A stretch of DNA of 22,897 nt, taken from a virus. The position numbers and the translations under genes are program-made. Below are positions 2,983 to 17,106 of the stretch, piece after piece. Position 1 is the stretch's first letter. Every line of letters starts with the position of its first letter. A model generated the notes under the pieces. The model was not told the origin of the DNA. It did not search any database and saw only the letters and a program-made list of their open reading frames with translations. The stretch is taken from IMG/VR virus record IMGVR_UViG_3300009420_000097, positions 1 through 22,897 of that record, one strand, 5' to 3'.

Positions 2983-3060
2983 TTTATTTGGTTTTTTTTG
3001 GTTTTATTGAAACTTAGTGTTTCAATTATGGTGTAAAGATAAAACAATTTTTGATTCCAA
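2983..3060 (-). promoter_or_regulatory. Promoter-hairpin-leader cassette, copy 1
   Basis: On the minus strand: -7 box TATCTTTA (3034-3041) followed by CACC; -33 weak (TTG 16 nt upstream). Just after the predicted start of the RNA comes a perfect 8-bp hairpin ATTGAAAC-ACTAA-GTTTCAAT (3006-3026), then the leader ACCAAAAAAAACC (2991-3003) and TAAAATG. The predicted 5'UTR is about 48 nt. Three further copies with the same order and nearly the same length precede the genes starting at 3371, 7827 and 17026. Confidence 0.6.
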
Positions 3061-3095: not shown

Positions 3096-3371
3096 TTATG
3101 CTTCTATTACATAAGATGTCATTAATAACGCGATCATTTCATTTTCCGATCCGTTAGATAATAAAGTAGTTAATTCCGTGTAATTTTTACGAGCAACACA
3201 ATTAAACATTCCATTGTCAAATGTTATGTCCATACACCCGTGTTCCGTTCCCGTTACTGACATACACCCGTTTTCCTTTGCAATTGTTGTGTCTTCTATT
3301 GCGTATGATCTTAAAGCATTGATTGTTGATCTTACTTCGTTTGCGATTGTGTTTTTTGTAGATTCTAACAT
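3096..3371 (-). CDS. Hypothetical protein, 91 aa
   Basis: Not recognised. The protein starts MLESTKNTIANEVRSTINALRSYAI (helical), has a central segment with Cys and Gly (ENGCMSVTGTEHGCMDITFDNGMFNCVA, roughly residues 33-60, probably beta-rich) and ends in a hydrophobic helix (MIALLMTSYVIEA). The frame is open for another 35 codons upstream, but the start at 3371 is chosen because it lies directly behind the repeated A-rich leader and because the upstream extension would be translated promoter and hairpin. It is the first gene behind a full expression cassette. Confidence 0.55.
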   Translation of the reverse strand: MLESTKNTIANEVRSTINALRSYAIEDTTIAKENGCMSVTGTEHGCMDITFDNGMFNCVARKNYTELTTLLSNGSENEMIALLMTSYVIEA

Positions 3372-3452
3372 TTTGATTTGGTTTTTTTTGGTTTGCGTTA
3401 AAACTTTGTGTCTTAACTTGGTGTAAAGATAGATTAAATTTTGAATCCACAA
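3372..3452 (-). promoter_or_regulatory. Promoter-hairpin-leader cassette, copy 2
   Basis: On the minus strand: -33 TTG (3450-3452), 18 nt spacer, -7 box TATCTTTA (3424-3431), then a hairpin GTTAAGAC-ACAAA-GTTTTAAC (3397-3417; 8 pairs with one G-U), leader ACCAAAAAAAACC (3380-3392) and the start at 3371. Predicted 5'UTR about 49 nt. Layout and lengths match copies 1 and 4. Confidence 0.65.
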
Positions 3453-7347: not shown

Positions 7348-7539
7348 TTAAATTCCTAAAGAAAATTTCTTTTTATAATCTCGCGTGTCATTTCCTTTTA
7401 AATCGAAATTCATAAATTCAACTTGCGGTTCACCACTCCAATTTGTTGTGTGTATTTTTAACGTAAAACCATTTTTGTTTTTTGTTGTTTTGGTTTTAAG
7501 TTTTGAAAATGCTTTTTGATATGCTTGTAATTGTGTCAT
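7348..7539 (-). CDS. Hypothetical small basic protein, 63 aa
   Basis: Not recognised. A basic N-terminal helix (LQAYQKAFSKLKTKTTKNKNG) is followed by a beta-like segment (FTLKIHTTNWSGEPQVEFMNFDLKG). The start lies behind an A-rich leader (AAAAACAAAAAAAAGAAATG) and a GC-rich hairpin, similar to the partial cassette before 2699. The short length and lack of known motifs limit the call, but spacing and leader support a real gene. Confidence 0.55.
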   Translation of the reverse strand: MTQLQAYQKAFSKLKTKTTKNKNGFTLKIHTTNWSGEPQVEFMNFDLKGNDTRDYKKKFSLGI

Positions 7540-7559: not shown

Positions 7560-7580
7560 GGGCGGGAAAAATCCCCGCCC
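7560..7580 (-). other. GC-rich hairpin between small genes
   Basis: GGGCGGG (7560-7566) and CCCGCCC (7574-7580) form a perfect 7-bp stem with a 7-nt loop. On the minus strand it is followed by ATTAAAAACAAAAAAAAG and the next start rather than a T tract, so it is not a standard terminator; a 5' leader hairpin or an RNA processing/stability element is more likely. Confidence 0.45.
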
Positions 7581-7590
7581 GTGTTTTGTT

Positions 7591-7827
7591 TTATCTTGCA
7601 ATCGCTTGCGCTAAGTATGTAAAAAAGTGCATAATGTCGCCGTTATGAAAATCGATTTTTACTAAAGTGTTTTTGATTTGGTTTTGTTCGTGTGTTGGTG
7701 CGATTTCAATATGTTCAACGATCACACCTAATGGAATAAAGTTTGTTCCGCTTTGTCCTTCAACTTCAATGATTGTTTCAATGTTGATGTTTTTTTCTGA
7801 AATTAAAGTGTTTAAATAATTTGTCAT
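7591..7827 (-). CDS. Hypothetical small protein, 78 aa
   Basis: Not recognised. Starts MTNYLNTLISEKNINIETIIEVEGQSG and ends VKIDFHNGDIMHFFTYLAQAIAR; mixed alpha/beta, slightly acidic, without cysteine or membrane segments. The frame is open for 20 codons further upstream, but those codons are leader and hairpin of the expression cassette, so the start at 7827 behind the A-rich leader is preferred. It is the first gene of an operon of small proteins and is expected to be strongly expressed. Confidence 0.55.
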   Translation of the reverse strand: MTNYLNTLISEKNINIETIIEVEGQSGTNFIPLGVIVEHIEIAPTHEQNQIKNTLVKIDFHNGDIMHFFTYLAQAIAR

Positions 7828-7906
7828 TTTCTTTTTGGTTTTTTTTGGTTGGCAAGATTGCCGTTGTTTGATGGTGTAAAGATACATTAAATTTCATTAA
7901 ATCAAA
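7828..7906 (-). promoter_or_regulatory. Promoter-hairpin-leader cassette, copy 3
   Basis: On the minus strand: -33 TTTG (7903-7906), 18 nt spacer, -7 box TATCTTTA (7877-7884), short inverted repeat GGCAATCTTGCC, leader ACCAAAAAAAACC (7838-7850) and the start at 7827. Predicted 5'UTR about 46 nt. The hairpin is weaker than in copies 1, 2 and 4, but promoter, leader and spacing are the same. Confidence 0.65.
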
Positions 7907-15217: not shown

Positions 15218-16294
15218 TTATGCCTTTCTTTTTAACGTCGAAACCATTGCATTGAAAAATGCCGCGTTTGGATCAACAACTGAATTGTCAATAACGCTTG
15301 GATCTGAATTTGGTGTAACGTCCGTTTTTCCCGCTTTCAATTTAGAAATTTCAATTGATTTATTTTCAATTGTTTTGTTTGCAACCTCTAATTCTTTTGC
15401 TTTGTTTTCCGCGTCTTCAATAGCGCTTTCTTTTTCACCTTCTGCCATTCCCATTTTTTCTTCAATGTCGTGAATCGCGTTTTCTAGGTTGTCAACTCTT
15501 GATTTTAATTCTTCATAAGTTAACGCCCAATCCGCGTCCTCTGCCGGTGTGCCTTCTTCGTGTCCTTCTTCGTGTTCGTTCTTAACACCCAACATTGACT
15601 TGATTTTTCCAAGTAAACTTGCGTCGTTTGAAATTTCTTTTATTTCAACAACTTCTTTTGTTTCTTTTGCCATAACAATTTGTTTTGATTTATTAATAAT
15701 AGTGTTTATTTTTTCGCTTGTAATATTTTGAAACTTCGAAACGTCATAATTGTTTTCGATTTTTAATGGTTGTGTGATTCCATTAATTAAACCCAATTCC
15801 ATTGTTTCTTCGGAATTAAACCAAGTTTCAACATTCATTAAATTAATATAATGATCCGAAGTTTGATTTGATTTTGACGCGTAAATTTCGGCAATTTCAT
15901 TTCTGATTTTATCTAAAATGTTTGCCGTTTTTCTTAATTCGTTTGCGTCACCGCCCGCACTCGCAAATGGATTGTGAATCATAAATAAAGAATTTTCCGC
16001 CATTTCTATTTTGTCACCCGCCATTGCAATAACTGACGCAATCGACGCCGCGATTCCCTCAACTTTCGTTGTTACTTTTTTCGAATGATTTTTTAATGCG
16101 TTGTAAATTGCCAATCCGTCAAAAACCGAACCACCTAATGAATTAATGTGGACGTCAATGTTTTTGTCTTTGATTGTTTTTAATTCGTCAATAAATGTTT
16201 TTGCGTTCACGTCGTGTCCGCCAACTTCCGAATATATATAAACGTCGGCGGTTTCTGATTCCGCGTTGTTTTGTATTTCAAACCAATTTTTCAT
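15218..16294 (-). CDS. ClpP-like head maturation protease fused to scaffold
   Basis: Residues 1-175 are a ClpP-type serine protease: HINSLGGSVFDGLAIYNAL, the nucleophile Ser84 in GIAASIAS, His107 in FMIHNP, and WFNSEETMELGLINGI near 158-173; the third catalytic acid is not obvious (E156 is a candidate). Residues from about 208 form an acidic region and a long coiled coil (WALTYEELKSRVDNLENAIHDIEEK... KELEVANKTIENKSIEISKL), the usual scaffold half, ending FFNAMVSTLKRKA. The protein should assemble and then trim the procapsid. An internal Met208 (15673) follows an A-rich stretch and could start a separate scaffold. The gene has its own promoter behind a terminator. Confidence 0.85.
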   Translation of the reverse strand: MKNWFEIQNNAESETADVYIYSEVGGHDVNAKTFIDELKTIKDKNIDVHINSLGGSVFDGLAIYNALKNHSKKVTTKVEGIAASIASVIAMAGDKIEMAENSLFMIHNPFASAGGDANELRKTANILDKIRNEIAEIYASKSNQTSDHYINLMNVETWFNSEETMELGLINGITQPLKIENNYDVSKFQNITSEKINTIINKSKQIVMAKETKEVVEIKEISNDASLLGKIKSMLGVKNEHEEGHEEGTPAEDADWALTYEELKSRVDNLENAIHDIEEKMGMAEGEKESAIEDAENKAKELEVANKTIENKSIEISKLKAGKTDVTPNSDPSVIDNSVVDPNAAFFNAMVSTLKRKA

Positions 16295-16394: not shown

Positions 16395-16565
16395 TTATTG
16401 ATAAATTGTTTCCGCCATTGCATTAATGATTTTTGACGGATAAACCTTGTCTTTTGCGGCGTCAAAATGTAAACGTCCAATTCTATTTTCAAAGTTTAAT
16501 TTTTTTAATTGTTCGGTTAAAAATTTTGAAATCAATTTTTGTTGTGCGTGTGTTAAATTTTCCAT
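16395..16565 (-). CDS. Hypothetical small protein, 56 aa
   Basis: Not recognised. It reads MENLTHAQQKLISKFLTEQL, KKLNFENRIGRLHFDAAKDK and VYPSKIINAMAETIYQ: two or three helices, slightly basic, no Cys. The start directly follows the leader ACCAAAAAAAACCAA and a strong GC hairpin, and a terminator follows 23 bases after the stop, so it is framed as an expressed gene. It is read after the 16628-17026 gene, both probably from the cassette at 17027-17106. Confidence 0.6.
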   Translation of the reverse strand: MENLTHAQQKLISKFLTEQLKKLNFENRIGRLHFDAAKDKVYPSKIINAMAETIYQ

Positions 16566-16567
16566 TT

Positions 16568-16610
16568 GGTTTTTTTTGGTATTAATTAAGGCGGGACAAA
16601 ACGTCCCGCC
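16568..16610 (-). promoter_or_regulatory. GC hairpin plus A-rich translation leader
   Basis: On the minus strand a perfect 8-bp stem GGCGGGAC/GTCCCGCC with a 5-nt loop (16590-16610), nine bases (TTAATTAAT), then ACCAAAAAAAACC (16568-16580) and the start at 16565. A partial copy of the cassette without a promoter box. A T tract is absent downstream, so it is unlikely to be a terminator. Confidence 0.5.
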
Positions 16611-16627: not shown

Positions 16628-17026
16628 TTATTTTGTTTCTGATACGTGTTCTAATAATAGAACCATTGCGCTTAATTCTTTTTTTAAAATTTGTAATTCT
16701 TCTGAAATTTCTTTTATTAAATTTTTTCTTTGATCTTCATTATTATTTTCATCTATTTGGTTAAATGTTTTTCTTAATCTATTTTTGCAAAATAAGATTG
16801 AAAATTCTAATGTTTCTGAATCCATTTCTTCCATTTGATTCATTGTAATTGAATGTTGAACACTTCCCGTTGCTAATTGAACTTTTTGTCCCATTAACGC
16901 TTTTTTTAATTGCCAAAATTCAAACGTTCCAAATTCAAATTCAATCCAATTTTGATTTTCTAATTTTAATGATAATTCTTCTAATCTTTTGTTGTGAAAT
17001 GCTGATGTTAAGTTAGTTAGTGACAT
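16628..17026 (-). CDS. Hypothetical protein, 132 aa
   Basis: Not recognised. It starts MSLTNLTSAFHNKRLEELSL, contains WIEFEFGTFEFWQLKKALMGQKVQLATG, and from about residue 65 is acidic and helical with a likely coiled coil (RKNLIKEISEELQILKKELSAMVLLLEHV). No catalytic or metal motif. It is the first gene behind the fourth full promoter-hairpin-leader cassette although it lies among virion genes, so its expression probably differs from theirs. A host-directed early function is possible but unproven. Confidence 0.55.
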   Translation of the reverse strand: MSLTNLTSAFHNKRLEELSLKLENQNWIEFEFGTFEFWQLKKALMGQKVQLATGSVQHSITMNQMEEMDSETLEFSILFCKNRLRKTFNQIDENNNEDQRKNLIKEISEELQILKKELSAMVLLLEHVSETK

Positions 17027-17106
17027 TTTGTTGGTTTTTTTTGGTTTGTAATAAAGGTTTGTCCCTTATTTCTGATGTAAAGATACATTAAATGTTTGTT
17101 TGACAA
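17027..17106 (-). promoter_or_regulatory. Promoter-hairpin-leader cassette, copy 4
   Basis: On the minus strand: -33 TTG (17104-17106), 18 nt spacer, -7 box TATCTTTA (17078-17085), hairpin AATAAGGG-ACAAA-CCTTTATT (17050-17070; 8 pairs with one G-U), two bases, leader ACCAAAAAAAACC (17033-17045), start at 17026. Predicted 5'UTR about 48 nt. The loop is identical to copy 2. Confidence 0.65.

Follow-up and report, generated by a model that had tools for sequence, protein, structure and literature searches.

A promoter-hairpin-leader cassette upstream of scattered small genes in a tailed phage and a related leader hairpin in unrelated phages

Introduction

Bacteroidota do not use Shine-Dalgarno sites, which prompts the question of how their phages reach strong expression, and to our knowledge phage leaders have rarely been examined. 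The question is raised here by a 22.9-kb IMG/VR virus (the whole stretch analysed, 22,897 nt, is referred to as the window), a tailed phage that has all of its main genes on the minus strand, among them annotated genes for a portal, a head protease, a virion structural protein and a tape measure protein, and whose promoters and leaders are of the Bacteroidota type. At four sites, A to D, a promoter, a short hairpin and an A-rich leader stand in the same order before a small gene, and we ask what such a cassette might do. We lean, if only slightly, towards the reading that the hairpin is a 5′-terminal mRNA cap that would protect the transcript and bound an A-rich landing site for the ribosome.

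Anatomy of the four cassettes

The order of -7 box, hairpin, leader and start codon described in an earlier note on this DNA is borne out at all four minus-strand sites, each of which carries the -7 box TATCTTTA. Transcription starts were predicted by placing this box at -12 to -5, the position mapped for the sigma-A -7 box of F. psychrophilum (PMC9723704). At site A the box (3034-3041; this and all features below are on the minus strand) predicts +1 at 3029, and an 8-bp stem with a 5-nt loop (ATTGAAAC-ACTAA-GTTTCAAT; 3006-3026) starts at +4 and is followed by 23 nt of unpaired A-rich leader (AAAACCAAAAAAAACCAAATAAA; 2983-3005) up to the start codon at 2982 of gene A (2755-2982; 75 aa). Site B has its box at 3424-3431, a predicted +1 at 3419, a hairpin of the same kind starting at +3 (GTTAAGAC-ACAAA-GTTTTAAC; 3397-3417) and an unpaired A-rich leader of 25 nt (3372-3396) before the start codon at 3371 of gene B (3096-3371; 91 aa). 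At site D (box 17078-17085; predicted +1 at 17073) the hairpin AATAAGGG-ACAAA-CCTTTATT (17050-17070) again starts at +4, with 23 nt of unpaired A-rich leader (17027-17049) leading to the start codon at 17026 of gene D (16628-17026; 132 aa), which has the head protease gene (15218-16294) on one side and tail-side genes on the other. The earlier account of three 8-bp stems with 5-nt loops (ACTAA, ACAAA, ACAAA), 3-4 nt past the predicted start, thus holds for A, B and D, and we refer to these as class I hairpins.

Site C departs from this pattern in its hairpin. Its box (7877-7884) predicts +1 at 7872, and a 4-bp GGCA/TGCC stem (GGCA-ATCT-TGCC; 7851-7862), the class II form GGCA-NNNN-TGCC, starts at a predicted +11 and is followed by 23 nt of unpaired A-rich leader (7828-7850) before the start codon at 7827 of gene C (7591-7827; 78 aa). 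The idea of one cassette shared by all four sites therefore stands for promoter, leader and spacing, whereas the hairpin falls into two classes. The predicted 5′UTRs, recomputed as 47, 48, 45 and 47 nt for A to D, likewise shift the range of 46-49 nt given before. Each leader folds better than its dinucleotide shuffles, with z-scores of -6.4 (A), -4.3 (B), -2.4 (C) and -3.3 (D).

The promoters are of the sigma-A type. Read by eye, B, C and D have TTG or TTTG and an 18-nt spacer before TATCTTTA, and the upstream element of A is weaker than these (GTG at 19 nt or TTG at 16 nt). TATCTTTA itself occurs seven times in the window against 1.0 expected, a number reached in none of 100 shuffles; three of the seven boxes are not part of cassettes, and an 8-bp stem, with start and loop left flexible, follows three of the seven compared with ~3.7% of random window positions. 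The leader ACCAAAAAAAACC stands before the ATG at A, B and D, and exact or near copies of it also precede genes at 2699, 4940, 6716, 13299 and 16565 without the promoter-hairpin unit; ACCAAAAAAAACC alone is not diagnostic of the cassette. Related sequence (AAAGTTTGATTT or ATGAAA-like), common to the relatives, is also present on the minus strand ~15-50 nt upstream of the A-D -7 boxes, and may be an UP element or a regulator site.

That the small proteins might be host-directed, as suggested earlier, finds no support in the genes: those of A, B and D match no family, and gene C encodes a widely conserved phage protein (phrog_6004) with a near-invariant KIDFHNGD motif. Homologs of gene C occur in 31 viral loci, including phages with Shine-Dalgarno-like leaders, and a fold search with its AlphaFold model (pLDDT 95.9) gave no PDB match. 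In other Bacteroidota phages these homologs have short leaders (~25-30 nt) without a hairpin. In a different phage group, the start codons of two gene C homologs (L032, near 835, and L034, near 4001) are preceded by another leader hairpin, CGTTATTTGCAGAGCAATAACG.

Recurrence in related phages

When viral contigs were scanned for the exact pattern, related contigs proved to carry the cassette, often in more than one copy, and a covariance-model search of these relatives, as proposed in the earlier note, recovered all of the copies there and one extra (in G003). The cassette is present in at least four related, non-identical phages, near-identical contigs such as 3300027813_000087 having been left out of the independent count, and its reach is wider than first proposed. 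Copies precede orthologs of gene B (L021, L023), gene C (L015, L017, L022) and gene D (L014), as well as a further, 178-aa gene (L019, L080). Upstream of gene C the hairpin is of class II in the window and in L015 and of class I in L017 and L022, and from this exchange between orthologs the two classes appear interchangeable.

Beyond the known family, a relaxed class I scan gave one real match, in a more distant phage (L089), where the site B hairpin is present letter for letter with a different leader (AAAACCAAAAAAACTAAAAAACA) and before a different gene; the other new matches had neither promoter nor leader and were rejected. The cassette pattern had seven matches in reference genomes, none of them with a cassette and three of them the same coding stretch in Flavobacteriales. 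In a small survey of promoters, a significant hairpin lies within the first 40 nt at 4 of 14 in the window's family, at 0 of 12 in other Bacteroidota phages, several of which have a gene C homolog, and at 0 of 15 in Flavobacteriaceae host stretches. The leaders of the other phages are short and unstructured, so that the hairpin is an optional addition to a promoter that does not require one.

A leader hairpin in unrelated phages

Class II extends well outside the window's relatives. A scan for the promoter together with class II found unrelated phages, among them a 14-kb contig with three copies (G020), a contig with two (G022) and others with one each, and each of these promoter-adjacent copies precedes a start codon. 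Without the promoter requirement, AACGGSAATNNTSCCACA has at least 120 matches in viral contigs, compared with 38 for the control AACCCSAATNNTSGGACA, in which the two outer G-C pairs of class II are flipped. By a strict leader-like criterion (not within a long ORF, and 8-50 nt upstream of a start codon), 46 among the 120 class II matches listed qualify and none of the 38 control matches does. A looser definition that allows alternative upstream starts, applied to the class II pattern (the 0 of 38 for the control refers to the strict criterion), gives 67 sites in 25 protein clusters among the matches listed. Clusters were made with simple similarity rules, and counts are given by cluster because the Gene product 88 group supplies many of the matches.

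The scans fixed the flanking bases and left the third stem pair free, and among the matches listed this pair is complementary in 25 of 25 leader clusters versus 20 of 33 others (Fisher p = 2.4e-4). The distance from the stem end to the AUG has a median of 25 nt, matching the spacing in the window, and 21 of the 25 clusters fall within a 13-nt band (p = 3.5e-6 against a uniform distribution); some 25 unrelated phage genes thus have AACGGSAATNNTSCCACA ~25 nt before the start codon among the matches listed.

The genes downstream include major head proteins of two unrelated families (phrog_267 and phrog_10), single-stranded DNA-binding proteins of two unrelated families (phrog_112 and phrog_743) and Gene product 88 (PF17338), most of the others having no assigned function. 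Head and single-stranded DNA-binding proteins are typically abundant in phages. Because class II precedes them in other phages, the earlier description of the cassette as a high-expression module is plausible. With such unrelated and typically abundant proteins served in unrelated phages, the hairpin seems to be a part that phages can reuse where they need strong expression, class II being a candidate sequence tag for genes that a phage needs in quantity. Some class II leaders lie behind sigma-70-like promoters (TTGACA...TATAAT/TACAAT) and contain GGA stretches resembling Shine-Dalgarno sites, so that class II is not confined to expression signals of the Bacteroidota type. In one group of phages (L131, L140, L193 and ~23 other loci) a consensus-like sigma-70 promoter is immediately followed by a class II hairpin and then by a gene for Gene product 88 (PF17338), an arrangement suggesting that this protein may be made in quantity.

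In the host genomes searched, class II was absent from leaders. The class II pattern had three matches in 199 Flavobacteriaceae genomes, none of them leader-like, and the combination of the host -7 box promoter with class II had none in 148 Bacteroidota genomes. Rfam returned no relevant family, and no Flavo-1, for the window (E up to 1) and no relevant match at gathering score for 11 phage loci, and none of five class II core sequences was found in the literature searched. Blastn matches among GenBank phages were chance or coding and were rejected, with the exception of a podovirus (L280) that has GGCAATGTTGCC 18 nt before an annotated start. The pre-early gene A1 of many T5-like phages (e.g. 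L284, L285) has GGCAATATTGCC in its leader, ~40 nt from the ATG; the flanks are oriented opposite to those of class II, and these phages were left out of the class II count.

The absence of the flipped-stem control from leaders indicates that class II is conserved not only in pairing but probably in sequence too. A flipped stem would place a G-rich 3′ arm near the ribosome, where it might act as a stray Shine-Dalgarno site, and this may account for its absence; a sequence-specific reader is the more novel option. On a tentative, broader reading, which we hold to be rather doubtful, AACGGSAAUNNUSCCACA is a phage leader element recognised by its sequence by a conserved part of the host machinery (ribosome, RNA chaperone or decay enzyme); for that reason many phages that share neither ancestry nor promoter type would have acquired it for their abundant proteins, whether by convergence or by exchange. 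Class I would then be a lineage-specific functional substitute in the window's phages.

Sequence conservation could also be expected of translational operators, in which a phage or host RNA-binding protein would read the RCNAA loop of class I or the GGSAAUNNUSCC of class II and switch the small genes together. The class I loop bases are indeed semi-conserved (ACTAA, ACAAA, ACGAA, GCGAA, ATAAA), the class II sequence is conserved and its flipped version is missing from leaders, and there is precedent in T4 gene 43, where a hairpin ~40 nt upstream of the AUG is bound by gp43 (PMC3014915). One specific reader is, however, hard to reconcile with two unlike hairpin classes that exchange upstream of gene C. 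Class II, moreover, serves genes that are unrelated to each other, and the phages that have it differ in promoter type. No candidate for the reader protein was identified, and on balance we judge such operators unlikely.

Hairpins downstream of the cassette genes

A feature missed in the earlier note is a GC-rich hairpin within ~25 nt of the stop codon of genes A (2729-2747), C (7560-7580) and D (16590-16610), while gene B is directly followed by cassette A. Nearly all of the relatives' copies examined have a GC-rich hairpin (GGGCGGG...CCCGCCC type) or a T-run terminator soon past the stop. The GC-rich hairpins in the window are mostly without a T-run on the gene strand, with T-rich tails on the opposite strand, and only one of the three at A, C and D has a partial T-run on the gene strand. 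These three lie 29, 20 and 24 nt, respectively, before the ATG of the next gene (2493-2699, 7348-7539 and 16395-16565), a geometry like that of the 5′ hairpins, which raises the possibility that the hairpin mainly fences a ribosome landing strip, whether at the 5′ end or between genes.

With GC-rich hairpins downstream, the 5′ hairpins could alternatively be antitermination or RNA-polymerase-modifying signals, like nut/boxB or HK022 put, that allow polymerase to pass them, and the predicted location at the very 5′ end of phage transcripts would suit such a role. We think this quite improbable, as the units are short, closing in a hairpin or terminator instead of extending across long operons, and neither a boxA-like companion nor a second hairpin was noticed. 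Known put RNAs are also larger than these hairpins.

Conservation of pairing

The proposal that selection acts on RNA structure is supported by covariation in the relatives, by compensatory changes between orthologs and by wobble pairs. Among eight distinct class I copies, six of the eight pairs have changed on both sides and 98.4% of cells are paired. The covariation score of 0.64 compares with 0.32 for shuffled copies and is reached in none of 500 shuffles, and the signal is lost (at most 0.23) when the pairing partner is slid. Seven of the eight cells that depart from Watson-Crick pairing are G-U wobbles, not all of them independent events, pointing to a structure that probably forms in RNA rather than to a DNA palindrome.

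The orthologs of gene B in L021 and L023 have class I hairpins with compensatory changes, and between site B and L021 the outer pair has gone from G-C to A-U by changes on both sides. Site D and L014 differ by two double changes (U-A to C-G and A-U to U-A) with pairing kept, and between orthologs of the 178-aa gene GGC/GCC has become GGG/CCC. Pairing is conserved in both classes, by covariation in class I and in class II by complementarity in 25 of 25 leader clusters among the matches listed.

The same positions bear on whether the inverted repeats are instead operators in the DNA, overlapping the transcription start, at which a phage repressor or activator would bind. Perfect palindromic arms exist (at site A and in GGCAATATTGCC) and adjoin promoters, but the sites do not share a half-site sequence, G-T positions that pair in RNA and break a DNA dyad are present in most class I copies, and class II centres are mostly not palindromic; we regard this reading as very unlikely. 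Slightly less probable still, and already disfavoured, is that recombination has recently copied a single regulatory segment to all of these places, with a functionless hairpin. The sites are nearly the same in promoter, leader and spacing, and some genes have class I stem sequence in common, but copying keeps sequence, whereas the stems have changed with pairing kept, also between orthologs, and class II recurs with unrelated promoters and leaders.

A putative 5′-terminal cap

If the hairpin is a 5′-terminal cap, as we favour, each cassette would work as an independent transcription unit serving a single small gene. Transcription by the host's main RNA polymerase would start at the TATCTTTA promoter, and the mRNA would have, in order, 2-10 nt of unpaired RNA, the short hairpin, 23-25 nt of unstructured A-rich RNA and the AUG. 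The hairpin would seal the 5′ end against 5′-end-dependent decay and fence off the A-rich stretch on which the 30S subunit would land in place of a Shine-Dalgarno site, so that the initiating ribosome and the hairpin together would leave little bare RNA upstream. Any hairpin that pairs could serve, and stems would therefore be free to change, with the same gene having class I or class II depending on the phage. Class II (GGSA-AUNN-USCC) takes the same position in many unrelated phages, before proteins typically needed in quantity.

Work on bacterial mRNAs is consistent with these steps. A 5′ hairpin prolongs the life of some E. coli mRNAs and impedes RppH, and B. subtilis mRNAs are stabilised by 5′ hairpins (PMC3997798). 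In E. coli, bare RNA in the 5′UTR raises the decay of well-translated mRNAs, although in the same decay model the height of the hairpin is unimportant (PMC11541907), and in F. johnsoniae adenines and an unpaired initiation region favour translation (PMC6847099).

Several observations weigh against a cap. Class I hairpins lie closer to the predicted 5′ end than does the class II hairpin of site C, at ~+11; no leader-like site was found for class II with its stem flipped, which is not explained by pairing alone; and the hairpin is optional, since gene C homologs use short leaders that lack one. Whichever role it plays, a 12-21 nt hairpin followed by a 23-25 nt A-rich strip is a candidate expression or insulation part, and the presence of class II before head and single-stranded DNA-binding genes under unrelated promoters suggests a general rule for phage mRNA ends.

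Comparison with known systems

The arrangement resembles the E. coli ompA and papA and B. subtilis aprE leaders, in which an unstructured stretch for ribosome binding comes after a hairpin a few nucleotides from the 5′ end (a predicted position here). Each of those leaders belongs to a single host gene, whereas here one phage uses the module for several of its genes and the class II sequence is conserved across unrelated phages; stabilisation of the phage transcripts would be by analogy with them. The operators of T4 genes 43 and 32 serve single autoregulated genes and have a known reader, in contrast to the many genes served here, for which there is no candidate reader.

Phage morons are likewise small genes with their own promoter and a post-stop hairpin amid phage operons, as gene D for example is, and both features are present in the window, the promoter at A-D and the hairpin at A, C and D (with a partial T-run in only one). 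Moron status requires patchy presence relative to close relatives, together with expression data, and the comparison here is among partial contigs; a shared hairpin leader is outside the moron definition. Flavo-1 and other Bacteroidota cis-regulatory RNAs in Rfam are also structured elements in Flavobacteriaceae leaders, none of which matched the window (E up to 1) or, at gathering score, the 11 phage loci.

The remaining signals are like the sigma-A promoters and A-rich translation starts of F. johnsoniae and F. psychrophilum, with which the cassettes share a TAnnTTTG-like -7 box, an upstream TTG and an A-rich leader with no Shine-Dalgarno site. The median host 5′UTR is 24 nt in F. psychrophilum (PMC9723704), compared with the predicted 45-48 nt here, and the difference reflects the addition of the hairpin.
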